From Synechococcales cyanobacterium C42_A2020_086 (GTDB taxonomy: Bacteria; Cyanobacteriota; Cyanobacteriia; Elainellales; Elainellaceae): DNA of 64,000 nt. A program made the translations under genes and the position numbers. Numbering within the stretch: position 1 is the stretch's first letter; the number at the start of each line of letters is the position of its first letter. The stretch spans positions 62,001 to 126,000 of the forward strand of contig JACYLU010000009.1 in the NCBI GenBank assembly GCA_015272325.1, written 5' to 3'. The notes beneath the pieces were generated by a model. It saw nothing but the letters and a program-made list of their open reading frames with translations, was not told the origin of the DNA and searched no databases. This document shows positions 9,508-24,950 of this stretch, piece after piece.

Positions 9508-12500
9508 CTAGTTGACTTTGAACTGTCCGACACTAGCCTGAAGCATTTCGGCTGTTGCCAGCAGCTCTTGGAACGATGCAGAAATTTGGGTGGCATCGGC
9601 TGAGGTTTGGGCGGCAATGGCAGACACATCGCTCATCGCATGAATCACTGCCTGCGACTGATGCGTTTGGGTTTGCGTTGCCTGGGTAATCTCTTGAACC
9701 AATTGACTGATTTGAGTTGTTGCCGTCATGATGGCATTCAAGCTCTGCCGAGTCTCGTTAACTAGGGTCGTCCCATTCACCACCTGTTCGATTCCCAGGT
9801 CCATAGCTGACGCAACGGCGCTCGTTTCTGTTTGGATCTCTTGCACTAGCTTTTCAATCTCGGTGGTTGCTTCCGCCGATTGCCGCGCCAGTGACCGCAC
9901 TTCATCAGCAACTACTGCAAATCCTCGGCCGTACTCTCCTGCTCGTGTCGCTTCAATAGCCGCATTCAGCGCTAGCAGTTGGGTTTGTGTGGTGAAGTTG
10001 CTAATCAGGTTGACAACCTTGGAAATTTTCTGTGATGATTCGCTGAGCCGTTTGATTTTTTTACTGGTTTCCGCAACGGTCTCTCGAATATTCAAGATTC
10101 CATCGACCGTACGGTTCATGGCAGCATCTCCTGCTTGAACGATTTCATTGGCTTGCTGAACCGCCAAATTCACCTGCTGCGCGTTTGATGCTACCGCTTG
10201 GGTGGAGTCCACCATTGTTTGAATTCGCTGCAATGCTTGAGTCACTTCTTGCAATTCTTGTTGAACTTGCTGGGACAAACGAGCAATTGCCGCTCCGCTT
10301 TCTTGAGAGGTCTGACCCATCTGACTTGCCGCAGTTTGCACCTGCGTCACAATTTTACGCAGGCTTTGAATGGTGTTGTTGTAGGCATCGGCTACGGTTC
10401 CTACTTCATCTTCCGTGAGCGGTGCACGAACGGTTAAATCGCCTTGAAGAGCTGGTCTGACCGCTGTGAGAAGCTGTACCACATGACGTTGAATCTGCTC
10501 TTTGCCTTCTTTCTCCCGTGCAATGGCTAAAGCTCCTTCTCGCGCCTGCGTTTGGAGCTGCTCTAGGTATTCTGCCTGCTGGAGTGCCAATCCTAGTTGA
10601 GAGGCAATCTGCATTAGCAATCGGACTTCGCCATCTTGCCATTCTCTAGGTTCGCTGTGCTGAAACGCCGACAGCAGCCCCCACAGCTTTTGCCCCTGGA
10701 AGATGGCAACCACAGCACAGGCTCTGAAGCCAAAGTATTCTAAGGCCTCCACGTGGCAGTCCGTCATGCCTGCTTGGTAGATATCATTCGCCACCAGAAC
10801 TTCATTGTTGCGGAAGCGTCCTCCCTGATGTTCCTGCAGATAGGGATCTTCCCAGGCAGCACCAACCAAGCTGGGATAGTCGCCTACTTTCGACTCAGCG
10901 ATAATATCGCCATAATAATCTGGACGGAATTTGTAAACCGCAACTCGCTCAATGCCCAGCAGTTTGCGAACTTCCTGAGCTGCCGTGTCAAACACGACCT
11001 CCAACTCCGTGGTTTTGCGAATTTTATCAATCACCTTAGCCAGAGCCTTTTGCCCTTCTGCCTCTCGGGCGATTTGCTGGTTGCGGGCTTTGAGCTGTTC
11101 TAGATATTCTACCTGCTGCAGAGCAACCCCCAGCTGAGTGGCAACCTGCATCATCAGCTTGACTTCCGCTTCCTCCCAATGACGCGGCCCTGTGTTCTGG
11201 AACGCCGAAAGCAATCCCCAGAGCTGATCGCCCCGAAAGATCGCAACAACGGCACAAGCTTTGACGTCGAAGAATTCTAGCGCTTGAATGTGGCAATCCG
11301 TCAGGGGACGTTTGGGCTTTTGCAGATTGAACTGCCCATTCTCCCAGATTGTTTCTCCTTCATGAATATCATCTACAACTAAAGCATCGTTGTTCAGGAA
11401 GCGGCCACCTTTGTGCTCTGCCAAGTAGGGATCTTCCCAGCCACTGCCCACTAGTTTCCGCCAGCCCCCCAATTCTGCCTCATGGACAAAGTCCCCGAAG
11501 AAGTCAGGGCGGAATTTGTAAATTGTGACTCGCTCTACGTTCAGCAAGCGGCGCACTTCCTGCGTCGTGGTTGAGAAGATCTTATCCAAGTCGAGGGACT
11601 GGCGAATTTGGCTAATGACCTTCGCTACCGTCTTTTGTTGTTCCAGGACGCGATTAAAGTGCTGTAGCTGAGTCTGCGTTTGTTCGATCAATAGCCCTTG
11701 CCGCAAAGCACTGGTGAATTGGGACGCAATTCGCTTAACCAAATGGATTTCATGCTCTTGCCACTCTCGGGGTCCATCGCATTGATGAATGCAGAGTAAT
11801 CCCCAAAGCTCTGTACCTCGCAGTAGCGGCACAATCAGATTGGCTCTAACCTGGAATCGGGAGAGAACATCAATATGGCAAGCGCTCAGATCGGCATTGT
11901 AGATATCAGCCACTGCTTGAATCCGCCCTTCCTGGTATTTATCAGCAAACTGATTGCCAAAGCAGTGGTCATGAATCTTGGCCGCAATGGCTGAGGAATA
12001 GCTTGGGTTGACATCTTCTGCCACAAACTCGCCGTCATCGTAGCCTGAGTCCGGATCGAACCGAAACACACCAACCCGATCAGCTTTGAGAAACTGGCGT
12101 ACTTCTCGCACCGTCGTATTGAAAATACTGGTGAGATCGAGCGAATGGCGAATTCGATCGACTATCTTGGTGAGGAGTCGCTCTTGGTCGAGTTGCAATT
12201 GCAGTTGATTCTGCACATCTGCGGTTTGTAGCCCTAGTACCAACTCCACCGTAATTTGATAGAGCAAGCTGACTTCCGATTCTTGCCATTGACGCGGTTT
12301 GCTGCACTGGTGCGCAACAAGCAGCCCCCATATCTTGTCATTCACGATGACCGGCAGTGCCACACTCGCTTTAATCTGAAACTTTTCCCAAAGCTGCATC
12401 TGGTAAGGCGAGGATTGCACCTGAGCGGTATCTTCGATGTCAATGACCTGTTTCTGCTTGTACTCGGTTGCACAGTTGAATCCAAAGCAATGAACAGGCA

Positions 12501-13260
12501 AGGATTCATGAAGAGAAGGGGTCCATCCGCTGGCCAACGCCTCAGCTTCTACCTTGCCTTGCGTTTCCCCTTCAAAGCGAACGAGCAGCACGCGATCACT
12601 CTGCAGGATTGTCTGTACGCGACTGACTGCTGTTTTGAACAAGTCGTGCAGGGTCGTTGCCTGTCGCATCTCTTGGGCGATGGCCCATGCCCATTGCCGC
12701 ATCACCTTGAGTTGTTGCTGCACGGCGGTGTTATCGCGATCGGCAAATCCGTGATGGGCGCTTTGCAGCAGTTTCACAATCTGTTGCAGGCTCTCTCGCA
12801 AGTGTGGCTGGCTGAGCGTTCCAGATTTCTCTAGCTCGGTTTTTAGAGTCAGGATAGCAGCAGCAGTTTTATGAATATCCAGGCTACTGTCAGCTGTCGG
12901 AGCACTGACCCGTTTGCTGGAGCTGTTGACACTAGCCGCATTCTGTGATCCATTAGAACTACCATTGGCTCCATTAGAACTAATGGTGGGGATGGTAGAA
13001 CTGAGGGTAGAACTAGCATTCCCATTGCCCTGAGGATGCGTGCCCATCTCCGGCGCTCCGATGGAATGGGGTATAGCGACGGGCTGAACGCTACTGCGCT
13101 CACCTTGAGAAAACGGGTTGACCAACGGCTGACTATTGCTCTGAAACCCATTCGCCGCCGTTGTAGGGTGCTGCATAGGTTCAGAGTCTTGTTCAAACAA
13201 GCTGAAGAGGTCTTGAGTAACCGTGTCCGCAGAGGAAGGAGTGGGGTAGAAGCGCGTCAT
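9508..13260 (-). CDS. pixJ: Multi-GAF cyanobacteriochrome methyl-accepting chemoreceptor, PixJ-like
   Basis: Soluble chemoreceptor of 1250 aa and likely photoreceptor for phototaxis. After a low-complexity N terminus (1-130) come four GAF domains at about 205-345, 375-520, 560-718 and 755-898. GAF2 has a DHCF motif (D431-F434) and the canonical chromophore Cys461-His462, as in dual-cysteine DXCF cyanobacteriochromes (blue/green type). GAF3 (Cys656-His657) and GAF4 (Cys835-His836) have only the canonical cysteine plus WEDPYL, as in red/green types. GAF1 lacks the canonical cysteine. A HAMP-like segment (about 926-975) and the signalling hairpin tip ([20 protein letters not shown], about 1096-1115) follow. 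No transmembrane segment is seen, so the array would be cytoplasmic. Confidence 0.93.
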
Positions 13261-13329
13261 AGTTTAACTGTGGCTGAGGTAGTGGGAAATCGGTTTGGGT
13301 TGCAAGCCAGGGAACCAGATGGCAATAAC

Positions 13330-14223
13330 TCAACGCCCATCGCCGGTTGCATCCCGGAAGCGATAGCGGTGCAAGCATGGATCTTGGATTAAGGCATTGA
13401 CATCTAGAACCAAGCTGCTGGAACGAGTCAGATAACCCTGGATAAATGGCATCAGCCGAGGCGAAAACAACTCAACTGAAGCTGGCTGCATTTGGCTGAG
13501 GCTATGTTGCTCAATATCCATAATCTGAGGAACCACAATGCCTAGTAAGGTGTGCTCGGCTTCAATCACAATCGTGTAAAAGATTCGGGAAGCATTGAGG
13601 GTAATCGGATGAGTTTCACCCAAGCCCAACTGCAGCCCCAAATCAACCAGCCATAGGATCTCGCCGCGGCAGTTGTAGATGCCCAGAACACAGTCCGGCA
13701 TGCTGGGAACGGGCAAAATTGCTGCTACCGGCACCTTTAGGACCTCTTTGATGCAGTTCACCGGCAGCAGTGCTGTCTCATCGCGATTGAAATAGAAGCG
13801 CAAAAATTTCTCGGCTTCGGGAGCTTCCTGAGAACTGAGTCCAGGGGTAGTCTCAGGGACATCATCGCTCGTCAACCATGACGGGGTGGTTCTACCTTGC
13901 CCTTGATGCAACCAATTCTGCAAGGAGGTGGGCGCTGCTAGCTGAATGTCCTGCTTCCAAGCTGGTGCAGCTTGCCCCCGCTGTTGACCGTAGACTTTGA
14001 CTGCTCTAATGTCCTCCGGCAACGCGGTCAAACAATCCTGAATCCAGCCGATGACCGTGTGAGCGTCAGGAGTCTGATCTGCCTCTAGCAGGATCCCTAG
14101 ACAATTCTGCTTGCGAGCGACCTTGACGTGAATGCCGGCTGTGTTAAATCGCTGTCTCAGCAGAGCGGCAATGGCTTCGAGATCCCCTGCTTGGGCCAGC
14201 TCTACTAGAGAATGCTGCAGCAT
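13330..14223 (-). CDS. pixI: CheW-like protein with N-terminal cyanobacterial domain, PixI-like
   Basis: Coupling protein of 297 aa. The C-terminal half (about 137-285) is a CheW domain: EKFLRFYFNRDETALLPVNC, then CVLGIYNCRGEILWLVDLG, then the segment around LLGIVVPQIMDIEQHSL. The N-terminal 90 residues (LAQAGDLEAIAALLRQRF ... VKVYGQQRG) match a short domain I know from the N termini of many unrelated cyanobacterial proteins, of unknown role. The extra domain makes it nearly twice the size of CheW. It lies 4 bp from pixH and 69 bp from pixJ in the same direction, supporting a role in coupling PixJ to PixL. Confidence 0.85.
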   Translation of the reverse strand: MLQHSLVELAQAGDLEAIAALLRQRFNTAGIHVKVARKQNCLGILLEADQTPDAHTVIGWIQDCLTALPEDIRAVKVYGQQRGQAAPAWKQDIQLAAPTSLQNWLHQGQGRTTPSWLTSDDVPETTPGLSSQEAPEAEKFLRFYFNRDETALLPVNCIKEVLKVPVAAILPVPSMPDCVLGIYNCRGEILWLVDLGLQLGLGETHPITLNASRIFYTIVIEAEHTLLGIVVPQIMDIEQHSLSQMQPASVELFSPRLMPFIQGYLTRSSSLVLDVNALIQDPCLHRYRFRDATGDGR

Positions 14224-14227
14224 CGTC

Positions 14228-14593
14228 TTATCCCTTAAGCAATTGACGAACGGTTTGCAGCAGTTCTTGATGGTTCACCGGCTTGGGCAAATAGGCATCT
14301 GCCCCCAACATGCTGCCCCACATTTTGTCTGCCTCTGTATTTTTAGTGGAGCACATCACGACGGGAATAGAGCCAGTTGCGGAATTGGCTTTCAGTTCAC
14401 GGCACAGCTCAAAACCACTTTGTCCTGGCAGAATGACGTCTAGCACAATCAGGTCGGGCTTGTGTAAATGCAGCTTTTCTTGGGCTTCCTCACCACTTTT
14501 AACGTTGACGACGGTGAGACCCGCCTGCCGCAAGTAGGTGCTCAGCAATTCTGCTTCGGTTAGGGAATCTTCGACTAACAACACAGTACTCAT
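14228..14593 (-). CDS. pixH: CheY-like response regulator, PixH-like
   Basis: Single receiver domain of 121 aa. The start at 14593 (MSTVLLVEDSLTEAELLSTYL) gives a canonical receiver. The frame remains open to 14644 but that would overlap pixG and add 17 unrelated residues. Acidic pocket E8-D9, phospho-acceptor D52 in LIVLDVILPG and the conserved lysine in LPKPVNH are present. In cyanobacterial taxis operons this regulator pairs with the PATAN-domain regulator PixG to steer type IV pilus motors. It lies between pixG (10-bp gap) and pixI (4-bp gap). Confidence 0.92.
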   Translation of the reverse strand: MSTVLLVEDSLTEAELLSTYLRQAGLTVVNVKSGEEAQEKLHLHKPDLIVLDVILPGQSGFELCRELKANSATGSIPVVMCSTKNTEADKMWGSMLGADAYLPKPVNHQELLQTVRQLLKG

Positions 14594-14603
14594 AGGATTA
14601 GCG

Positions 14604-15815
14604 CTAAGAGAAACTAAACTTTGTGACGCTGGGGCTGGATTCATCCAAGGGAAGGGAAGGAGACAGACTCGTCGCTAGATGCTTGCGAATCACCGCTAGT
14701 ACCTTGTCGGTCTGAATTGGCTTGGCTAAAAAATCTGACGCACCAACCACTTTGGCGCGGACTCGATCAACGATGCCATCATTTCCTGTCAAGATGACAA
14801 TTGGCGTGTTCTTGAAGGCGGAAACCCGTCGGATTTGAGCGCAGATTTCGTAGCCGTTGGCGATGGGCATAACTAAATCGAGGAAAATCAGATCGGGTTT
14901 GCGTTCTAGCAACATTGGCAGAGCGAGCAGCGAATCTTGGACACCGACGAAGCGATAGCCAGCTGCCACTAGGATTTGCTCTAGGGATTGGCAAAGCTGA
15001 ATGCTGTCATCGATGCAGAAAATGAGGGGCTGAGCGGTCGTAGATCCTGCTTTTGAGAGCAGTTCAGCTTTTGGAGGTGACGCATAGGGATTTGGAAAGT
15101 CGGCAACCGGGTGCAGAGTGATCAGGCCTTGCTTCAGATAGGGCAAGAAGGAACGAGTCACCGTTAAGGGATCTCGCTTCATCAACACGGCTAGTTCTCG
15201 GAGAGTAGTCCGACCATTCAGCATTTTCTCCAAGGCAACGTAACTGTTCGAGGACGTACGCTGCTGTAATGTTGCTGCGTCCTTCATGTGAGGCGCTAGG
15301 TTGGGAGAATAGGGCGACAGTCCAAGACTGCACCAGTTTTGCCAGAGCTGCTGAGCTTTGCTCAGAGTCTGATCGAGATTGAAAACAGCGAGGGGTTCTC
15401 CTAGATTCACCTGCTGGTCTACGGTGCAGGTCACCTGTTCGCTGAAGCCAAAGCTCTGAAAGATATCGAAGAGCACCTCTAGAACAGCTTGCTCGCTGAG
15501 GGCCACCGCTTGCTCTCGCGTCATTTGCTGGCGTTTCACCAGTATGGCAATCGCTGTATATTCCCAGTAATCTGTCATTTCCGACTCTCGCAACTGGATT
15601 GTTTTGGAGTCTAATTCGGGACAGATATGATTGAGCAGTCGATACCAGCGCCGGAATCGATGCTCTCCCCCATCGGCCCAAACAAAACGCCCTAGGCGGA
15701 AGTAGAGATTCCAGGCTGGGCTGGTGTGTGATCTCACTGTCAACCGACCTGTAAAATGTGATCGATTAGCCTGCTGGAATTGATGCACCAGCCGCTCAAG
15801 CGTTAACCTTTCCAC
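14604..15815 (-). CDS. pixG: PATAN-domain response regulator, PixG/PatA-like
   Basis: First gene of the phototaxis operon, 403 aa. Residues 1-70 and onward form a PATAN/DUF4388-type domain (FTGRLTVRSH ... WNLYFRLGRFVWADGG). A helical middle part includes a winged-helix-like stretch near 195-235. A receiver domain (about 263-380) has phospho-acceptor D313 (LIFLDLVMP) and K365. PatA-type regulators are known to act on pilus motor ATPases in phototaxis and on heterocyst pattern in Anabaena; the operon context favours phototaxis. The start is a GTG at 15815. An inverted repeat lies about 450 bp upstream. Confidence 0.9.
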   Translation of the reverse strand: MERLTLERLVHQFQQANRSHFTGRLTVRSHTSPAWNLYFRLGRFVWADGGEHRFRRWYRLLNHICPELDSKTIQLRESEMTDYWEYTAIAILVKRQQMTREQAVALSEQAVLEVLFDIFQSFGFSEQVTCTVDQQVNLGEPLAVFNLDQTLSKAQQLWQNWCSLGLSPYSPNLAPHMKDAATLQQRTSSNSYVALEKMLNGRTTLRELAVLMKRDPLTVTRSFLPYLKQGLITLHPVADFPNPYASPPKAELLSKAGSTTAQPLIFCIDDSIQLCQSLEQILVAAGYRFVGVQDSLLALPMLLERKPDLIFLDLVMPIANGYEICAQIRRVSAFKNTPIVILTGNDGIVDRVRAKVVGASDFLAKPIQTDKVLAVIRKHLATSLSPSLPLDESSPSVTKFSFS

Positions 15816-16538: not shown

Positions 16539-17717
16539 GTGACGCTTACCGAACTTGACCAACTTTTGCTCGATTGGCAACGAAAGCTGGAGCTAGCGAG
16601 TCAAAATCTTCTGGATCTGCAAAATTTGCCGACCTATCAACGATTGGCAGGAGAAGGGGGATTTACCAAAGCGCCGTTGACTGGCGCAACAGCAAAAGCG
16701 GTAGAGCCGGCCCTGAAAGCAATGGATGACTTGTTTCAGCACTTTGCTCTGCTGGCTCAAACCATTGAACGCGCCCTATTTCTGCGGCGACAGATCAATA
16801 CCATTTGGGGCACCGATCCACGTATAGATAACATAGTTCAGATTCTGACTCAAAAATCAGTTCAGCTGTCTGTGGTGTCGTTGCCATTGTCTCAACGGGG
16901 ACTGCTGAGCGAGGCTGAGCAAGGCTACTATGTAACACCAAGCAGCTTATTAGCAGCCATGCAGTCTGCTTTTGACCTGGCACGTGATCAGGTGTTAGCG
17001 GTTGATCATGCCTGGGCGACTCTAGAAGCCAAATTGCTGGATGCCACGAGCGCAATCCAAGAATTAGAGGCAGAAGGGGCCACTCTAGACGCAGCCAAAA
17101 CGACCCTGAGTGCCCTCCAAGACCGCATTCTCTCGGATCCGTTGGGCGTACAAGAGGAATTTGAGACAACTGTTGCACCACTCATTGACCAAGCCCGGCA
17201 GCGCCTGAACGAAGAAAAACATCGACAGCAGACTCTAGAAGCAGAACTGGCCTTGGCGCGGCAGCAGTTGCAAAACCTGCAAGCTATGGTGCATCAAGCC
17301 ACTAGCCTCGGTGCCGAAACAGCCGAGAAAATCCAAGAGCCGCCAGAACCTTTACCCGAGGTGAATTTAACGGCACTAGAGCAATGGTTAAGCCGCCTGG
17401 AAACAAAATGTGCAGAGGGGGCAATAGGTCCAACCCAGGTTGGGCTGCGGAATTGGAGGCGGCAAGTCGAGCAGGCTATGACCACGACTCAGATGACCCT
17501 TGCAGCTCATACCCAAGTGCTACAGCATCGGCAGGAATTGCGGGGACGCCTAGAAGCGCTTCAGGCGAAAGCCCTTGCTCGTGGTGTTGCAGAAGACATC
17601 ACCTTAGTTCAGGCTGCAGCTCAAGCTCACCAGTTGCTCTATTCCCGCCCGACCGATTTGAAGCAAGCAGCTGATTGGGTGAGTCGCTATGAACGCTGGT
17701 TGAATCAGGGGTGTTGA
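16539..17717 (+). CDS. Coiled-coil protein of unknown function at head of the PknG cluster
   Basis: Protein of 392 aa starting at a GTG (VTLTELDQLLLDWQ). I do not recognise a catalytic domain. It is almost entirely helical, with long heptad-like stretches at about 150-260 (DEKHRQQTLEAELALARQQL-type) and 290-390. There is no signal peptide or transmembrane segment, so it should be cytoplasmic. It precedes the PknG-like kinase gene by 252 bp on the same strand, a gap that contains tandem duplications and could carry a separate promoter. Its place beside kinase, phosphatase, FHA and VWA genes suggests a scaffold or substrate, which is inference only. Confidence 0.75.
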   Translation: MTLTELDQLLLDWQRKLELASQNLLDLQNLPTYQRLAGEGGFTKAPLTGATAKAVEPALKAMDDLFQHFALLAQTIERALFLRRQINTIWGTDPRIDNIVQILTQKSVQLSVVSLPLSQRGLLSEAEQGYYVTPSSLLAAMQSAFDLARDQVLAVDHAWATLEAKLLDATSAIQELEAEGATLDAAKTTLSALQDRILSDPLGVQEEFETTVAPLIDQARQRLNEEKHRQQTLEAELALARQQLQNLQAMVHQATSLGAETAEKIQEPPEPLPEVNLTALEQWLSRLETKCAEGAIGPTQVGLRNWRRQVEQAMTTTQMTLAAHTQVLQHRQELRGRLEALQAKALARGVAEDITLVQAAAQAHQLLYSRPTDLKQAADWVSRYERWLNQGC

Positions 17718-17826
17718 ATAAGTGGGCTAATTTTTTCGGCATTCAGGTGCGTCTCATCCGTAATTCGGTGGTTGTACTGTGTAGAGAGTAGTGACGCCGC
17801 TTCTTCTCTTCATCATTGAATTAGGT

Positions 17827-17887
17827 CTACAGATATCTACAGATATTTTATAGATGTTGGTGAAATTTTTATAGATGTTGGTGAAAT
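17827..17887. repeat. Tandem duplications upstream of the PknG-like gene
   Basis: CTACAGATAT occurs twice in a row (17827-17846). A 20-bp segment beginning TTTATAGATG and ending GTGAAAT is then repeated with period 21 (17847-17866 and 17868-17887). The block ends 82 bp before the kinase start, within its likely promoter or leader. Confidence 0.85.
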
Positions 17888-17969
17888 CCTAAAGTTAGGT
17901 TGTCAGTCCGGTCGCACAAAAAATGAATACGAACCGCAGTTAGCGATTGAAACGTCACTCAGCATCCCT

Positions 17970-20132
17970 ATGACAACGGAATCCTGTAAACGTCCCAACT
18001 GCAACGGCACCATTGATGAGGGTTACTGTGACACATGCGGTATGGCTGCCGTCGCCACCCTCTCTGGGAGTTTGATAGACCAGATTGAGCAAAGCAGTGC
18101 CCCTGTTTCGAGTTCTTTCTCGGTTAGCAGTCGTTCTCGAGGGTCGCGGCGCACCCGTTCGGTTTCGCAGAGCAACCGCAATCCTTTAGGTGCCGGTTTG
18201 GTTTCTCTCCCTGACCTGCCTTCCACAGAGCCTGAGAAGCTGCTGCTGAGCGATCCCAAAGTTCCCGAGAACAAGCGATTTTGCAGTCGATGCGAGGGAG
18301 CGCTCCGGCGCGAACAAGGCTTTTGCAGCCAGTGTGGTCAGAAGTATTCCTTCATGCCTTCCCTAAAAGCGGGCGATATTGTTGCCGATCAATACGAAGT
18401 GAAGGGCGCAATTGCCTATGGAGGTCTAGGCTGGATTTATTTGGGGTTTGATCGGCTGCTGAGCCGCTATGTCGTGTTGAAGGGATTACTGAACACCGAA
18501 GACGAAGCTAGTGCAGCTGTTGCCGTTGCCGAACGCCAATTTCTGGCAACCGTAAAACATCCTAATATTGTTGGTATTTATAACTTTGTGAATCATGGTG
18601 GTGAAGGTTTCATCATCATGGAATATGTAGGTGGGAAAACGCTTAAGGAGATTCGTAAACAACGGGGACCGTTGCCTGTTGCAGAAGCTATTGCCTATAT
18701 CCACCGTATCCTTAACGCCTTTGCTTATTTGCACAGCCAGGGGCTAGTTTATTGCGACTTCAAGCCCGATAACGTCATGGTAGAAGGAGGCGATGTCAAA
18801 CTCATCGACATGGGCGGTGTGCGGCGTCTTGATGACCGAGATGGGGATATCTACGGAACAGTTGGATATTCCGCTCCTGAGGTGGCTGCGGTAGGTCCTT
18901 CCGTTGCGTCGGATTTATTTACTGTTGGTCGCACATTGGCAGTGCTGTTGACCAGCATCCCTGGCTTTAGCCAAGAATACCAATACACCTTGCCTACGCC
19001 TCTAGCGGAGCCATTGTTTGCCCAACAGGAATCCCTCTATCGATTTTTACTCAAAGCAACGGCGTACCACCCAGAGGATCGGTTTCAGTCTGCCGACGAA
19101 ATGGCGGAACAGTTGCTTGGCGTTTTGCGAGAGACAGTTGCCCTGGAAACGGCCACTCCACGTCCGGCAGTTAGCCATGTGTTTGCCGACGATCCGCTTG
19201 CTTTTACGGCTAGTCCCGATTTGGCTCCCATCACCGCTAGCCCCGAGCATGTGCCGCTGCCGCTGCTCGATACCACCGACCCAGCATTTAATGCATTAAT
19301 TCCAGTCCTTGCTATTCCTCAGCCCGAGCAGCGAAACGCCAAACTGAAGCAGGTTGTCGAGCAGTTTCCAGAGTCGATTGAAGCGATGCTGCAATGGGCA
19401 AAAAGCAGCATGGATCTAGGACACAACACCGAAGCAGAGCAGATTTTGCGGGATATTGAAGCGAAGGATATCTGGGATTGGCGAGTGCTCTGGTATCGCG
19501 GTCGGCTCGACTTAGCCCAAGGTACTCCCAGCACCGCTCAGGACAATTTTGATCGGGTCTATACGGAGTTGCCAGGAGAACTTGCGCCTAAGCTGGCTCT
19601 AGCCATTGCTGCTGAGCACGCCAAACAGCTCACCCGGGCGATTGAACTCTATGACCGCATCTCGCGAACGGATTCCAACTATGTTTCAGCCAGTTTTGGG
19701 CTAGCTCGCTGTCAGTTTATGCAGGGCAATCGCTCGGCTGCGATATCAGCCTTGGAGCGAGTTCCTCCTCGCTCTAGCCTGTATCTGCGAGCGCGCATAG
19801 AAGCAGCACGACTACTGACTGATGCCCAAATCGCGCCTCCTCAAGTGCACGACCTCCAACAGGCAGCAGCAATTATTGAATCTCTCACCCTAAATGGTGC
19901 AGACCGCTATCGTTTGGTGCGGCAAGTGTTTGAAACAGCATTGCAGTTGATCACCAGTAAAGTACTGACTCCAGATTCCTCTGTGCATCTACTCGGACAG
20001 TCACTAGAAGAGGTGAAATTGAGACTGGGATTAGAGAAGGCGCTGCGAAATTTAGCACATCTAGCAACCGGAGATGAAAAAATTTGGCTGGTTGATGAAG
20101 CCAACCGTGTGCGTCCAAAAACCCTGTTTTGA
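17970..20132 (+). CDS. pknG: Serine/threonine protein kinase, PknG type with zinc ribbons and TPR tail
   Basis: Soluble kinase of 720 aa closely resembling actinobacterial PknG. Two cysteine clusters precede the kinase: C6, C11, C20, C23 and a rubredoxin-like C105-x2-C108 with C119-x2-C122. The segment GDIVADQYEVKGAIAYGGLGW matches PknG. The kinase (about 138-390) has ATP lysine K171, partner E188, catalytic D263 in YCDFKPDN and D280 in DMGG. There is no arginine before the catalytic aspartate, so it is a non-RD kinase like PknG, and DFG is replaced by DMG. A TPR-like helical region fills about 450-720. In mycobacteria PknG phosphorylates the FHA protein GarA; here an FHA gene lies three genes downstream. 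The ATG at 17970 is the only plausible start. Confidence 0.95.
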   Translation: MTTESCKRPNCNGTIDEGYCDTCGMAAVATLSGSLIDQIEQSSAPVSSSFSVSSRSRGSRRTRSVSQSNRNPLGAGLVSLPDLPSTEPEKLLLSDPKVPENKRFCSRCEGALRREQGFCSQCGQKYSFMPSLKAGDIVADQYEVKGAIAYGGLGWIYLGFDRLLSRYVVLKGLLNTEDEASAAVAVAERQFLATVKHPNIVGIYNFVNHGGEGFIIMEYVGGKTLKEIRKQRGPLPVAEAIAYIHRILNAFAYLHSQGLVYCDFKPDNVMVEGGDVKLIDMGGVRRLDDRDGDIYGTVGYSAPEVAAVGPSVASDLFTVGRTLAVLLTSIPGFSQEYQYTLPTPLAEPLFAQQESLYRFLLKATAYHPEDRFQSADEMAEQLLGVLRETVALETATPRPAVSHVFADDPLAFTASPDLAPITASPEHVPLPLLDTTDPAFNALIPVLAIPQPEQRNAKLKQVVEQFPESIEAMLQWAKSSMDLGHNTEAEQILRDIEAKDIWDWRVLWYRGRLDLAQGTPSTAQDNFDRVYTELPGELAPKLALAIAAEHAKQLTRAIELYDRISRTDSNYVSASFGLARCQFMQGNRSAAISALERVPPRSSLYLRARIEAARLLTDAQIAPPQVHDLQQAAAIIESLTLNGADRYRLVRQVFETALQLITSKVLTPDSSVHLLGQSLEEVKLRLGLEKALRNLAHLATGDEKIWLVDEANRVRPKTLF

Positions 20133-20175
20133 ACTCATCTTCGATGGCTTAACTTATCGAGGATACTCAGTCAGT

Positions 20176-20190
20176 ATATGTCTTACATAT
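20176..20190. promoter_or_regulatory. Small inverted repeat before the PP2C gene
   Basis: ATATGT and ACATAT flank a three-base centre in the AT-rich 144-bp gap between kinase and phosphatase genes. It could be an operator or a chance palindrome. It is close to, but does not fit, an NtcA box (spacing is 7, not 8). Confidence 0.3.
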
Positions 20191-20276
20191 CTTAATGGAT
20201 GATCAAATATATTATTCAATGAATCTGTTCAACAAGGCTCTATAAATTGTAATTCTTCAGTAAACATGGCTGACTC

Positions 20277-21353
20277 ATGCTGATCTCTGAGTGTCCAATC
20301 TGCCAGGCAGTGATACAACCGTTGGATCGCTTTTGCGAAGCCTGTGGTAATGCGCTGGCGGTAGTTAGCACTGTCTCATGCTGCCCTCGATGTCAAGCAC
20401 CGGGCGATGCCATTGACTCAGAAGGATACTGCGGGCAGTGCGGCTTCCAGGTGAATTGCAGCAGGTCGCGGGAGCCAGATGACCGGGTGGAATTAACTCT
20501 GGGTTTTTCACTGGCCGGTATCAGCGATCGAGGCTTAGTCCATACCCGCAATGAAGATGCAATTGCTCTTGCCTCTGTTGATGGCACGTCCATTCTGGTG
20601 GTTTGCGATGGAGTTTCGAGTTCCCTTAATCCCCACATGGCCTCACAGACCGCTGCTCAAACGATCTGTCAGGTGCTAACGGCAACAGCGCCATCTGGCA
20701 TCCATCCAACTTCTGCTCTTCAAAGAGCGATGGCTCAAGCTCAGGCAGCCGTTGCGGCCCTCGCACCTGTCAAATTCTACGATGCCAAACACAACAATGC
20801 CAGATACAACGGCAGACTGGACGAGATGACAACCCTGCTCGATCCCCCTTCCACTACAGGAGTTGCCGCTATAGTGCAGGCGGGCATGGCAACCATTGGC
20901 TGGCTGGGTGATAGTCGTGCTTACTGGGTTCCGGCAAGAAGGGCTGACCGAGCAGCGGCTGGACAAGGAGCAGATCATTCCGCAGCGCAACAGCTCACGG
21001 AAGATGACTCCTGGATCAATACTCAGGCTAGAGAAGGACAAGGAGCAGAGGCATCAGAGGCATCTCATGCTCATGTGATTACGCGCTGGCTAGGAGCCGA
21101 TGCCCCCAACTCGAACCCCTCGATTCTAACCGTTCACCTGCGCGATCCAGGATACCTGATTCTTTGTTCTGACGGCCTGTGGAACTATTTACAAGATGCT
21201 GCCCATCTCGCCAACTTGCTGGCATCTGCCATGCAGGCCAACGCGAATTCTGGCGCAGCGGAACTGGCTCAACACTTGGTGAATTATGCGCGATCACAAG
21301 GTGGATACGACAACATTACCGTGGCTATTTTTGTTGCCTCACTTGTTGCTTAA
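20277..21353 (+). CDS. PP2C-type protein phosphatase with N-terminal zinc ribbons
   Basis: Metal-dependent serine/threonine phosphatase of 358 aa, probable antagonist of the neighbouring kinase. The N terminus has repeated CxxC pairs (C6/C9, C20/C23, C36/C39, C52/C55) that can form two zinc ribbons like those in the kinase and FHA proteins of this cluster. The PP2C domain (about 75-355) has RNEDA near 92, VVCDGVSS, GWLGDSRAYW, LCSDGLWNYL and YDNITVAIF, so all main metal-binding aspartates are present. A low-complexity insert (about 220-260) separates the central motifs. The shared zinc ribbons suggest the three proteins bind the same partner or each other. Confidence 0.93.
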   Translation: MLISECPICQAVIQPLDRFCEACGNALAVVSTVSCCPRCQAPGDAIDSEGYCGQCGFQVNCSRSREPDDRVELTLGFSLAGISDRGLVHTRNEDAIALASVDGTSILVVCDGVSSSLNPHMASQTAAQTICQVLTATAPSGIHPTSALQRAMAQAQAAVAALAPVKFYDAKHNNARYNGRLDEMTTLLDPPSTTGVAAIVQAGMATIGWLGDSRAYWVPARRADRAAAGQGADHSAAQQLTEDDSWINTQAREGQGAEASEASHAHVITRWLGADAPNSNPSILTVHLRDPGYLILCSDGLWNYLQDAAHLANLLASAMQANANSGAAELAQHLVNYARSQGGYDNITVAIFVASLVA

Positions 21354-21375
21354 TAGATGAACCTGGAGTCTTGCA

Positions 21376-22656
21376 ATGGAACCTCAATTTACCGCAGAAG
21401 TCTTTCAAAATCCTTACCTGCCCCAAGGTGCCAAAGACGTGAACGCGATTATGACGATCACATTGGTGGGCAATGACAGCGCAGTAACTCACTCCTCCGG
21501 GCACTTGTTTGGCATCATTTGTGATGTGTCCGGATCTATGGGGGGACTCAAAATTCAGGCGGCTAAGGCGGCTATGGCGAGGGTAGTGACCTTGCTGCCC
21601 GAGGATAGCGCTTTTTTTATTGTCACAGGATCAAGCACTGCCCGCTTGATAGTGCCCGTGATGACCGCTACCCCCAGCAATAAACAAGAAGCAATCGCTG
21701 CCATTAACAACGTCACAGCCAACGGGGGCACTTTAATGTCGACGTGGCTCACGGCTGCGCTACGCGAGTTTCAAACTAGGCCAACCGCCATTCGGCAGGC
21801 ACTCTTGTTGACCGATGGCATGAATGACGATTCAGATGAAAACGCCTTGGCGGCAATCCTAAAACAGTGCGAAGGTGTCTTTCAGTGCGACTGTCGAGGA
21901 GTGGGCACCGACTGGCGAGTAGCTCAACTGCAGAGAATTGCGGACAAGCTGTTGGGTACAACCGATATCATTCCCGATGCTAGCGGATTAGAGGCTGACT
22001 TTCAGGCGATCTTGCAAAAAGCCCTGACCAAGACTATCAGCGATGTCCATCTGCGGTTGTGGACCCCGCAGGGAGCCAAGGTGTTGTTCTGTAAACAGGT
22101 CAGTCCGACGATTGTGGATTTGACGGGTCGGGCCAAACCGGTGAAGCCACAGGTGGTAGACTACCCGACCGGCTCGTGGAGCGTCAACGAACCGCGTGAC
22201 TATCATTTTTGTATTGAAGTCCCCGCTGGCAATGTGGGAGATGAGATGCTGGCAGGGCGGGCGAGCTTGGTGTGTTGGATCAACGAGGTTGAAACCAAAA
22301 TTAGTGAAGCTCGGATTTTGGCAACCTGGACCGACAATGAAGCGCTATCTGCCAAAATCGACCGCCGGGTAGCCCACTACACCGGACAAGCAGAACTCGC
22401 TCAGGTGATTCAAGAGGGGATGGAGGCTCGCGCTCGCGGCAACGTTGATGTGGCTACTGCTAAACTCGGGCGGGCCGTCCAGCTTGCCCATGAATCGGGC
22501 AACGAGTCTACGGCGAAACTGCTGCGAAACGTCGTGGATGTGGAAGATGCCTCCACGGGTACAGTGCGTCTGAAACGAGATGTTGCTAAGGCAGATGCCA
22601 TGGCGCTAGAAACCCGCTCTACAAAAACCACCCGCATTCCTAAAGACCCATCTTAG
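21376..22656 (+). CDS. VWA domain protein of the PknG cluster
   Basis: Cytoplasmic von Willebrand factor A protein of 426 aa. The VWA domain (about 40-220) has a complete metal-ion adhesion site beginning D50-V-S52-G-S54, followed by the conserved threonine region (NGGTLMSTW) and LLTDGMND. The middle resembles a beta-sandwich and the C terminus is helical. It ends in a Thr/Ser-rich tail (ETRSTKTTRIP), a conceivable kinase target and FHA ligand, though that is inference. The ATG at 21376 follows CTGGAG and lies 22 bp after the phosphatase gene, so co-transcription is likely. VWA proteins usually organise protein complexes. Confidence 0.9.
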   Translation: MEPQFTAEVFQNPYLPQGAKDVNAIMTITLVGNDSAVTHSSGHLFGIICDVSGSMGGLKIQAAKAAMARVVTLLPEDSAFFIVTGSSTARLIVPVMTATPSNKQEAIAAINNVTANGGTLMSTWLTAALREFQTRPTAIRQALLLTDGMNDDSDENALAAILKQCEGVFQCDCRGVGTDWRVAQLQRIADKLLGTTDIIPDASGLEADFQAILQKALTKTISDVHLRLWTPQGAKVLFCKQVSPTIVDLTGRAKPVKPQVVDYPTGSWSVNEPRDYHFCIEVPAGNVGDEMLAGRASLVCWINEVETKISEARILATWTDNEALSAKIDRRVAHYTGQAELAQVIQEGMEARARGNVDVATAKLGRAVQLAHESGNESTAKLLRNVVDVEDASTGTVRLKRDVAKADAMALETRSTKTTRIPKDPS

Positions 22657-22749
22657 GTAGGACTCAGCACTCGCAAGTAAGTTGATTGCATTCCATTTTT
22701 TATCTCACCGCTTTCTATTTCACCTCCCTTTACTCCTTGGATCACTGTG

Positions 22750-23574
22750 ATGGCTACTTATCCTTGCCCCAAAGGACATGACTCGACCGAAGCCGATTAC
22801 TGTTCAGAATGTGGTGCAAAAATGCAAGTGGTAACCCCTGCCTCGGACGAGACGGTCTCGAATGCCCCTCCACTACGGCAATCTGAACAAAGGCTTATCT
22901 GCCCCGACTGCACAACCCCCCATGACCTAGCAGTGGGTAACTATTGCGAAATCTGTGGTTACAACTTTGCGACCGGTGCTCATGGAGAACTGCCGGTGCA
23001 ACAGGCTAGTTTTGCCGTCAGCACTGCTGGCAGGTCTACTGCCCTAGACAATTCGGCAGATTCGTTAGCCGATGCCGCTGCAGTCACCTCTGTGGCATCC
23101 CATGTGGCACCCCAGGTTGAGTTGGAGGGGGAGTCTAATTCTGGATCTGACCCTTCCAACCGCCTGTCGAGACAAGACGGACTCCCCGTGCAGACATTAC
23201 CCACCTCTGCAACGGGTTGGGTTGCTGTGATATCCGTCGATCCAGCATTACGTAGTGCCCATAGCCCCCCTGCTCCTGACCAGCCAGCCATCGCACTTCC
23301 CTTGGAAAAACCGATTAATCTAATTGGTCGCACCAGCGAAAAGCGGGCTATTTATCCTGACGTTGCTCTCGACTTCGACAATGCTGTTTCTTACCGCCAC
23401 GGACTGCTGATAGTCCAATCTGAAGATTGTCTGCTCTTCCGCGATATTGGCTCCTCGAACGGAACCCGAATTAACGGCACCGAAGCCACCGTGATGGCTG
23501 ACATCCCGCTGCACCACCACGATGAATTAACGCTTGGACATTGGACCAAAATTCAAATTTGCAGGAGTCAGTGA
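22750..23574 (+). CDS. FHA domain protein with zinc ribbons, GarA-like role possible
   Basis: Forkhead-associated protein of 274 aa that should bind phosphothreonine. The start is the ATG at 22750; the GTG immediately before it is less likely. Two zinc ribbons occupy residues 1-75 (CPKGH ... YCSECG and CPDCTTPH ... YCEICG). A linker of about 110 residues leads to the FHA domain (about 180-270), which keeps the GR turn (NLIGRTS), the Ser/His segment (VSYRHGLL) and the GSSNGTRING loop. In mycobacteria the FHA protein GarA is the target of PknG and controls 2-oxoglutarate use. GarA lacks zinc ribbons, so this would be a variant. It ends 2 bp before the membrane protein gene. Confidence 0.93.
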   Translation: MATYPCPKGHDSTEADYCSECGAKMQVVTPASDETVSNAPPLRQSEQRLICPDCTTPHDLAVGNYCEICGYNFATGAHGELPVQQASFAVSTAGRSTALDNSADSLADAAAVTSVASHVAPQVELEGESNSGSDPSNRLSRQDGLPVQTLPTSATGWVAVISVDPALRSAHSPPAPDQPAIALPLEKPINLIGRTSEKRAIYPDVALDFDNAVSYRHGLLIVQSEDCLLFRDIGSSNGTRINGTEATVMADIPLHHHDELTLGHWTKIQICRSQ

Positions 23575-23576
23575 AC

Positions 23577-24950
23577 ATGACAACGCAAACAGCACCGCTC
23601 AAGCCTGTTCGCACCCTGACCACACCGCAATTGCTGAAAGCGGGACTATACGTGACTTGGGGAGCCAGTGCATTGATGCTGATCAGCGCCATTGCCGGCA
23701 TCCAAGCTCAGCGCAACGGGCTACAGGCTGTTACCCAAAGGGCAATTCCCAACGTGATCGTGGCGCAGCGTCTCAAAACAGCTATGACTGATATTGACTC
23801 AATTGTCGCCAATCAGCTGTTGAAGGATTCCTTGACCGTGAGTTCGGCTGATCAAGAAGATTACATGACCCGACGAGGAGAACTAGCCGAACGAATAGTG
23901 TTGGCGGCTCGTAATCTGTCCCTGGGTGATGCTGAGCAGAAACCCCTGGAAAGTATTTTGCTGAATTTTAACGACTACATTGCTCAGGCGGAACGGGCCC
24001 GGTTTGCCAAAGAGCGAGGTGATCAGGTGGCAATGCTAACCGCCTACCGTCAGGCTAGTCGAATTCTAGATGAAAAACTTCTACCCGCCGCTGACGAATT
24101 TGCCCAGGTGAATGAAACAGCGTTGGAGAGGAATTATCGAGAGGCGCAGACTGCAGCCTATTGGCTGCGGGGAGCAATTCTGCTTTCTGGGCTGTCGCTG
24201 CTGATCGCTCTAGTTGCCTTACAGTTCTTTTTGGCTCGCCGCACCCGCCGCACCTTCAATCCAGCACTGGTAGCTGCAACGGCCATTGCCATCGTGTTTA
24301 TAGGACACACTCTAACATTGATGTCAACGTCACAGACACTGCGATATTTGCGCGAAGATGTCTATGAATCTATTCGCCTGCTACGGCTAGGACGGGTACA
24401 TCTCTATCAAGCCGATGGAGCTAAAAGCCGCTTTCTGCTCGATAAGGTGCTATCCACTCAGCACGAAACGGCATTTTACCAGCATATTAATCAAGTTCTC
24501 ACCTTACCAGATGCCACTTCCTTAGACGCCGTTATTGATGCGTTCCAAGTGGAGCAGACAACACTAGGCATGACTGGGTACCTCGCCGAGTCGCTATATC
24601 GGGCAACCTCTCCTGAAGAGCGCACAGCACTGTTAGTTATGATGAGGGATTACGCTCAGTACCTCCAGATCAACCAGCAAATTCGGCAACTAGCGCTGAG
24701 CGGACAGCAAGACGCCGCCATTGCTCTCAGTACTGGGCAGAGACCAGGGCAATCTCAATGGGCATTTGACCAACTGCTCGATAACAATGAGAAAGCTCGC
24801 GAGATTTACGTTGCCCGATTTGAGCGGGGCACTAGTGATACTCTCCAATCGCTTGACGGCTTTGAAGCCAGAGCAGCAATCAGTATGGCCTTTGTCGCCC
24901 TGCTCATCCTCCTAGGCTTGCGTCCGCGCTTGCGAGAGTATTTCATCTAA
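23577..24950 (+). CDS. Four-TM membrane sensor, GlnX-like
   Basis: Membrane protein of 457 aa. The ATG at 23577 follows AGGAG by 9 nt and comes 2 bp after the FHA stop; the frame is open to 23541 but that would overlap the FHA gene. Hydrophobic segments at about 20-42, 197-217, 228-250 and 433-450 give four membrane passes, with two helical extracytoplasmic domains (about 43-195 and 255-430) resembling four-helix-bundle sensor domains. This topology is that of GlnX, the membrane partner of PknG in actinobacteria, which reads amino-acid binding by GlnH. No binding-protein gene follows. The GlnX assignment rests on topology and neighbourhood and needs a profile comparison. Confidence 0.85.
   Translation: MTTQTAPLKPVRTLTTPQLLKAGLYVTWGASALMLISAIAGIQAQRNGLQAVTQRAIPNVIVAQRLKTAMTDIDSIVANQLLKDSLTVSSADQEDYMTRRGELAERIVLAARNLSLGDAEQKPLESILLNFNDYIAQAERARFAKERGDQVAMLTAYRQASRILDEKLLPAADEFAQVNETALERNYREAQTAAYWLRGAILLSGLSLLIALVALQFFLARRTRRTFNPALVAATAIAIVFIGHTLTLMSTSQTLRYLREDVYESIRLLRLGRVHLYQADGAKSRFLLDKVLSTQHETAFYQHINQVLTLPDATSLDAVIDAFQVEQTTLGMTGYLAESLYRATSPEERTALLVMMRDYAQYLQINQQIRQLALSGQQDAAIALSTGQRPGQSQWAFDQLLDNNEKAREIYVARFERGTSDTLQSLDGFEARAAISMAFVALLILLGLRPRLREYFI

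Follow-up and report, generated by a model that had tools for sequence, protein, structure and literature searches.

Six linked genes around a PknG kinase and a GlnX-family receptor in a cyanobacterium: a locus recurring across phyla and its proposed signalling circuit

Do six adjacent genes of a cyanobacterium form one signalling module, and is this module the cyanobacterial form of the GlnH-GlnX-PknG-GarA/OdhI pathway of mycobacteria and corynebacteria? The question is raised by a locus of Synechococcales cyanobacterium C42_A2020_086 (GenBank assembly GCA_015272325.1) at 16539-24950 of the window, the whole stretch of 64,000 nucleotides analysed here (contig JACYLU010000009.1, positions 62,001 to 126,000 of the forward strand). 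The genes encode a helical protein (A), a PknG kinase (B), a PP2C phosphatase (C), a VWA protein (D), an FHA protein (E) and a GlnX-family membrane receptor (F). Much work has gone into PknG, a virulence kinase and metabolic regulator best known from tuberculosis bacteria. An earlier note on this DNA had described the locus as a complete cyanobacterial PknG-type module with the FHA protein in the place of GarA. Across phyla the six proteins are found together, their catalytic and binding residues preserved, and the FHA protein is distinct from GarA/OdhI. The six genes are read here as one transferable phospho-signalling module in which F would act on B and B on D, with E as reader and C as eraser; the probability of this reading is put at about 0.5.

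A sample of 145 cyanobacterial genomes of the class was searched with three profiles, NF058618 (GlnX), PknG_TPR and VWA_3_C. Strong matches to each were found in ten genomes, and these were the identical ten, from five families. The chance that two independent random sets of ten coincide is 1.2e-15, which serves as a guide only, since the genomes are related. Strong matches had E ≤ 2.2e-40 for GlnX and E ≤ 3.8e-35 for PknG_TPR; the count left out 39 of the 49 genomes matching PknG_TPR, whose single, weaker matches reach at most 31.9 bits (five exceed the Pfam cut-off of 27), and 4 of the 14 genomes matching GlnX, with weak matches of at most 30.2 bits. The Bacillus subtilis control gave a weak GlnX-family match too. 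Within the sample PF18571 (VWA_3_C) occurred in no genome outside the ten that match PknG and GlnX strongly and can therefore mark the module. All six genes were seen in eight of the ten (in one of them split across two contigs). A wider sample of the phylum yielded a GlnX match at E ≤ 1e-20 in 6 of 386 genomes. The four of these six that lie outside the first set have VWA, FHA and A genes adjoining GlnX; the kinase is present in all four and PP2C was seen in three. One genome of another class of the phylum (G191) holds two different VWA-FHA-GlnX-A copies (L068, L069), on one contig with the full module in rotated order and on another of only 4.5 kb. In a further cyanobacterial module (L071:7015-8594) the PP2C and VWA genes are separated by two additional open reading frames (ORFs), of which the first looks ParA-like by eye.

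Genome contigs were scanned with the kinase alignment as query, which did work; a contig scan with the GlnX protein alone confirmed nothing. The loci examined are the best 80 of 568 confirmed relatives. They are biased towards kinases resembling that of the window and none is mycobacterial; at least 11 are probably contigs already examined, and some others are closely related. Profile annotation of ORFs of at least 60 residues found the full set of six genes at 52 of the 80 loci; 63 have five or more. Less than 7 kb was available on one or both sides of the kinase in 20 of the 28 incomplete loci; where at least 7 kb was present on both sides, 34 of 42 loci carry six genes and four carry five (L126, L134, L136, L138). 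For the nine loci with the kinase alone or with A only, VWA_3_C was found elsewhere in the genome in 9/9, and GlnX was found in 11/11 genomes when two Acidimicrobiales loci lacking F are included; several of these loci end near a contig edge, "elsewhere" may sometimes be just past it, and among the loci so searched only L093, L096, L104 and L120 (with L136 and L138 for GlnX) are flanked by 7 kb or more in both directions.

The grouping by phylum is our own assignment, and many records are metagenome bins in which misbinning is possible. On this basis six genes were seen in 28 of 48 loci of Cyanobacteriota, 7 of 8 of Acidobacteriota, 11 of 11 of Actinomycetes, 2 of 4 of Acidimicrobiales, 2 of 3 of Burkholderiales, and the only loci of Verrucomicrobiota (1/1) and Solirubrobacteraceae (1/1). 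Single records of Dormibacterota, Bacillota, Armatimonadota and an unidentified organism contain four or five genes. Records without a metagenome-bin mark include Granulicella rosea, Trinickia fusca, Undibacterium jejuense, Actinoplanes, Nocardioides and Kribbella. The module, introduced in the earlier note as a cyanobacterial system, is thus not specifically so.

The gene orders are rotations of one another (ABCDEF, CDEFAB, DEFABC and FABCDE), with A or F on the opposite strand in three loci. Kinase and VWA trees, built from 37 of 54 six-gene loci, share their main groups, with cyanobacteria together and actinobacteria together, and in both, Burkholderiales group with a representative of a different class within the window's phylum (100/100). 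Three rows, one from Verrucomicrobia and two acidobacterial, shift their placement between the trees, and long branches were flagged. Pairwise distances among the six proteins correlate at 0.87-0.975, values that still contain the effect of shared ancestry. The rotated orders, the six-gene loci in different phyla and the agreement of the kinase and VWA trees are read as signs that the module travels between genomes as a unit.

Residue conservation was taken from an alignment of 54 six-gene loci, to which all counts out of 54 refer. Protein B, claimed to be PknG-like, proved to be a full-length PknG: PF16919 (PknG_rubred), PF00069 (Pkinase) and PF16918 (PknG_TPR, 1.5e-67) match one chain, all above cut-offs, and residues 72-720, the last being the end of B, align with M. 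tuberculosis PknG (2PZI, E 1.9e-133). Its catalytic residues K171, E188, D263, N268 and D280 are invariant (54/54). Among the rubredoxin Cys, C108 is kept in 53 loci and the other three in all 54; the docking-type segment keeps G76 and L77 in 54/54 and L73 in 47/54. Of 81 kinases, 72 showed the N-terminal ribbon and 63 the docking segment by regular expression, and the alignment recovers both more fully. The PP2C protein keeps its four metal-site Asp (D94 and D111 in 53/54, D299 and D345 in 54/54), and the FHA protein keeps R195 in 54/54 and S215 and N238 in 53/54. Both had been described as carrying zinc ribbons; the PP2C and FHA domains are confirmed, and the ribbon models fall below Pfam cut-offs with a Cys pattern that is clear by eye and conserved. 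The MIDAS (metal-ion-dependent adhesion site) of D, said to be intact, is so, with D50, S52, S54, T119 and D147 invariant in 54/54.

The end of D holds a further invariant element. T396 lies inside VWA_3_C (369-415), and T416, T418 and R420 lie just beyond the domain, near the chain end, as a T-x-T-x-R motif kept in 54/54. A cruder search overlooked the tail in 4 of 64 VWA proteins because it had been wrongly cut, and the alignment figure is used here. The conserved Thr of B, C and E lie inside their domains. The tail threonines of D are taken as a putative phosphorylation site.

Table 1. Features of the six-gene locus (positions of the window)
Feature	Position	Strand	Basis
Protein A, 392 amino acids, mostly helical, GTG start	16539..17717	+	ORF
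Protein B, PknG kinase: N-terminal Cys4 ribbon, docking-type segment, rubredoxin, kinase, TPR	17970..20132	+	Pfam, 2PZI match, alignment
Extra N-terminal Cys4 ribbon of B (C6, C11, C20, C23)	17985..18041	+	all four Cys in 54/54 six-gene loci
L-G-x-G-L docking-type segment, common to B and M. tuberculosis PknG	18186..18212	+	aligned to 2PZI
Rubredoxin-like Cys4 site of B (C105, C108, C119, C122)	18282..18338	+	PF16919 5.2e-16
Protein C, PP2C phosphatase with N-terminal zinc ribbons	20277..21353	+	PF13672 2.5e-15
Protein D, VWA protein with intact MIDAS and VWA_3_C	21376..22656	+	PF13768, PF18571
C-terminal stretch of D, predicted phosphothreonine tail	22561..22635	+	T396, T416, T418, R420 each 54/54 loci
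Protein E, two N-terminal zinc ribbons and FHA domain	22747..23574	+	PF00498 1.3e-7
Protein F, GlnX-family membrane receptor: four transmembrane segments, two extracytoplasmic helical bundles	23577..24950	+	NF058618, hydropathy, model

Protein F matches NF058618 over nearly its full length (E 2.1e-67), and this model also matches 45 of 45 aligned module receptors, 42 of which match the GlnX equivalog model. Only 4 of the 10 strong cyanobacterial GlnX matches pass the NF058618 cut-off. Hydropathy gave four hydrophobic segments, in agreement with the four transmembrane passages proposed before. A structure model of F, made from the TTG start at 23541, has a pLDDT (predicted local distance difference test) of 94.1 and shows four transmembrane helices and two extracytoplasmic helical bundles; the accessible part of PMC9769921 gives the same topology, confirmed by fusions, for GlnX of C. 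glutamicum. No Foldseek match of the model was obtained at E ≤ 0.001. In a second structural comparison the best match was NasR, a nitrate sensor (Z 16.1 over 276 residues), and ligand domains of amino-acid and organic-acid chemoreceptors also matched at Z of about 12. Since values of Z below about 13 are common among helical bundles, the matches show arrangement and shape, not ligand. On both points on which the one-module reading of the earlier note had been staked, it held: the genes are conserved together, with the three profiles marking the same ten of 145 genomes and the full set present at 52 of 80 loci, and GlnX is a relative of the membrane protein.

In mycobacteria PknG phosphorylates an FHA-domain regulator, GarA. 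In the proposed circuit F would sense a small molecule through its two extracytoplasmic bundles, via GlnH where this is encoded and alone in cyanobacteria, and would engage B through the TPR domain, as proposed for actinobacteria. B would phosphorylate the invariant threonine tail of D, E would read the phosphorylated tail, and C would remove the phosphate and reset the circuit; A may be a scaffold. FHA domains bind phosphothreonine. According to the accessible text of PMC8546545, the FHA substrate is recruited in actinobacteria by Thr that PknG autophosphorylates in its N-terminus, and E could likewise be drawn in by autophosphorylated Thr ahead of the docking segment of B. This recruitment, the phosphothreonine binding of FHA domains and the invariant Thr of the D tail are what suggests the circuit. 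With phosphosite and FHA domain split between D and E it would be an intermolecular switch, while GarA/OdhI hold both in one protein.

Several observations weigh against the module and its circuit. With at least 7 kb on both sides, B stands alone in L093 and L096 and with A only in L104 and L120, PP2C is absent from L126, and the stretches examined of two of the ten module genomes (G059, G137) showed no protein A. The window receptor scores under the NF058618 cut-off (228 against 250 bits) and far under that of the stricter GlnX equivalog NF041460 (37.9 against 780 bits). The D tail, E-T-R-S-T-K-T in the window, is not the exact ETTS motif of OdhI/GarA, further conserved Thr are found within the domains of B, C, D and E, and the tail Thr could serve assembly instead of phosphorylation. 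Gene linkage by itself would not prove a physical pathway, and the circuit is drawn from sequence.

TelA-like genes adjoin 8 of the 80 loci, 6 of 11 in actinomycetes and 2 of 3 in Burkholderiales; Pfam identifies TelA in the four that were scanned. Upstream of GlnX in Nocardioides, Kribbella and relatives (L145, L147-L151) are TelA-like and AAA ATPase genes, and in two Burkholderiales (L131, L137) a TelA-like gene stands ahead of the module. TelA was rejected as a core member, as it is over cut-off in 0 of 145 cyanobacterial genomes, with 2 weak matches. TerY-type triads are kinase/PP2C/VWA trios of envelope or tellurite-stress networks. By a second explanation C, D and B would be such a trio, GlnX merely its sensor and stress-dependent membrane assembly its output. 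The TelA neighbours favour it, and so does an actinobacterial neighbourhood of zinc-ribbon kinase, PP2C and stand-alone vWA reported in the accessible text of PMC7159879; that TelA is no core member speaks against it, and in Pfam D matches only the general models VWA, VWA_2 and VWA_3 besides VWA_3_C. It is considered somewhat unlikely. The TelA neighbours hint at envelope or stress physiology in the actinomycete and Burkholderiales lineages, not in general.

The phospho-signalling module with a D-tail substrate has also to be set against a GarA-like circuit in cyanobacteria that would control 2-oxoglutarate and nitrogen metabolism through phosphorylation of the FHA protein. The homology of PknG and GlnX to the actinobacterial pair and the docking-type segment kept in the kinase agree with it. 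The accessible text of PMC8546545 names ETTS as the N-terminal phosphorylatable motif of GarA/OdhI; E has no conserved Thr ahead of its FHA domain and no OdhI/GarA-type phosphosite in the six-gene alignment, and it scores 14.7 bits with the OdhI model (cut-off 200). That model was searched in 18 module-bearing genomes. In 12 of 12 actinobacterial ones an OdhI-like gene sits at a place apart from the module kinase (E ≤ 2.4e-35, three above the curated cut-off), the best match in the six others was only 2.6e-15, and the window genome reached 51.9 bits against 200. E was accordingly rejected as the equivalent of GarA/OdhI, which the earlier note had made it. The cluster is without GlnH, as that note had seen: neither the six genes nor the scanned flanking genes include one, the rest of the genome not having been searched. 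The marker domain is missing from 135 of 145 cyanobacterial genomes, which is odd for core carbon/nitrogen control. None of the results ties the module to 2-oxoglutarate. A GarA-like circuit is therefore improbable.

The binding protein itself follows lineage. Each of the 11 actinomycete loci has a GlnH-like gene placed between GlnX and A, which Pfam calls SBP_bac_3 in the two loci scanned, and in the Solirubrobacteraceae and Dormibacterota loci such a gene adjoins GlnX; the binding-protein queries matched nothing in any cyanobacterial, acidobacterial or Burkholderiales locus. In two of four Acidimicrobiales loci (L140:6154-7284, L142:6031-7221) a non-GlnH binding protein stands beside GlnX (SBP_bac_8 by Pfam in L140), which suggests retuning of the receptor. 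An operon glnX-glnH-pknG has been published (accessible part of PMC6069109), and given the GlnH-like gene in 11/11 loci it is, in these actinomycetes, nested within a larger module. In the C. glutamicum control GlnX was matched and VWA_3_C was not, and this species thus retains only part of the module. PknG_rubred occurs once in 17 of the 18 module genomes and twice in one, the second copy barely above cut-off; one PknG therefore probably serves both outputs in actinobacteria.

An anti-phage defence module based on kinase and phosphatase would fit the patchy distribution and apparent movement between phyla, and in PADLOC there are matches to the kinase and, weakly, to PP2C. Those listed for the kinase lie over its kinase-domain region, nothing matched A, D, E or F, and the actinomycete copies hold an amino-acid-type binding protein; this explanation is very improbable. 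A threonine phosphorylation pathway of the type VI secretion system (T6SS) kind, posting a secretion machine, shares the trio of kinase, PP2C and FHA protein and can practically be dismissed, as the receptor is GlnX-like and none of the seven scanned flanking genes is a T6SS gene (the rest of the genome was not searched).

The six plus-strand ORFs claimed for the locus are all present, in the order A-B-C-D-E-F, with spacings of 252, 144, 22, 90 and 2 bases when F starts at ATG 23577. Gene F had been begun at TTG 23541; the gene stands, and the ATG is the likelier start, with AGGAG upstream and a distance of 2 bases from the FHA stop. Common strand and spacing would be consistent with a single transcript; promoter- and terminator-like sites at the locus showed no excess over shuffled sequence. 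Protein A matches no Pfam family above cut-off. Its AlphaFold model (pLDDT 93.9) consists of long helices and one beta hairpin, and none of 228 Foldseek matches with E up to 10 reached E ≤ 0.001; the only suggestive one, to EzrA, is weak (probability 0.90, E 0.21), and 1 of 41 homologues matches Pfam EzrA (3.9e-4). The seven flanking genes scanned comprise a GAF-MCP/CheW/response-regulator set, two M16 peptidases and one methyltransferase. The chemotaxis-type set lies divergently upstream (9508-15815, minus strand) and encodes a multi-GAF chemoreceptor, a CheW-like protein and two response regulators, one with DUF4388; one of its regulators, used as query against the other module loci, gave partial matches in L052 and L062 alone.

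No description of the six-gene module was found in the open-access literature searched. The cyanobacterial PknG homologue itself is already published: rubredoxin-bearing homologues are named in Calothrix and Ktedonobacter (Lisa et al. 2021, PMC8546545), and the accessible text of that paper, which terms such proteins mostly restricted to Actinobacteria, describes no neighbourhood and no GlnX, PP2C, VWA or FHA partner for them. The broad GlnX family model NF058618 is likewise already kept by NCBI curators. What seems to be new is the wider arrangement of known kinase and receptor families, which suggests that the known PknG partners are only part of an older, wider system. Linking PknG and GlnX to four more proteins across phyla names a candidate substrate, reader and phosphatase of PknG, offers a route to test PknG roles beyond GarA control, and makes non-pathogenic carriers usable for studying the PknG system. 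One cultured cyanobacterium with the complete set of six genes is Calothrix sp. PCC 7103 (L087). Tentatively, and with some doubt, the actinobacterial GlnH-GlnX-PknG-GarA pathway may be what is left, pared down and put to new use, of an older mobile module of six parts with a separate phosphosite (the VWA tail) and FHA reader. If so, the ancestral D and E would have assembled on a MIDAS-bearing VWA platform under a tandem four-helix receptor, and GarA/OdhI would merge phosphosite and reader into one metabolic switch.

Among known systems, PpkA-PppA-Fha, the T6SS threonine phosphorylation pathway, has kinase, PP2C and FHA protein in common with the window and differs in receptor and kinase architecture and in its secretion genes, none of which adjoin the locus. 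The TerY triads and the zinc-ribbon kinase neighbourhood, the latter as far as the accessible text of PMC7159879 describes it, share the same enzyme and adaptor trio, but in the window the kinase is PknG, it is accompanied by GlnX, the FHA protein and A, and TelA stands beside some copies only. The GlnH-GlnX-PknG-GarA/OdhI pathway is alike in its full-length PknG with rubredoxin and TPR, in its four-transmembrane GlnX-family receptor with two extracytoplasmic bundles, and in the linkage of pknG and glnX. In contrast to that pathway, the window module is without GlnH, its FHA partner is not GarA/OdhI, and it adds PP2C, the VWA protein, the zinc-ribbon FHA protein, the helical protein A and an extra ribbon on the kinase.

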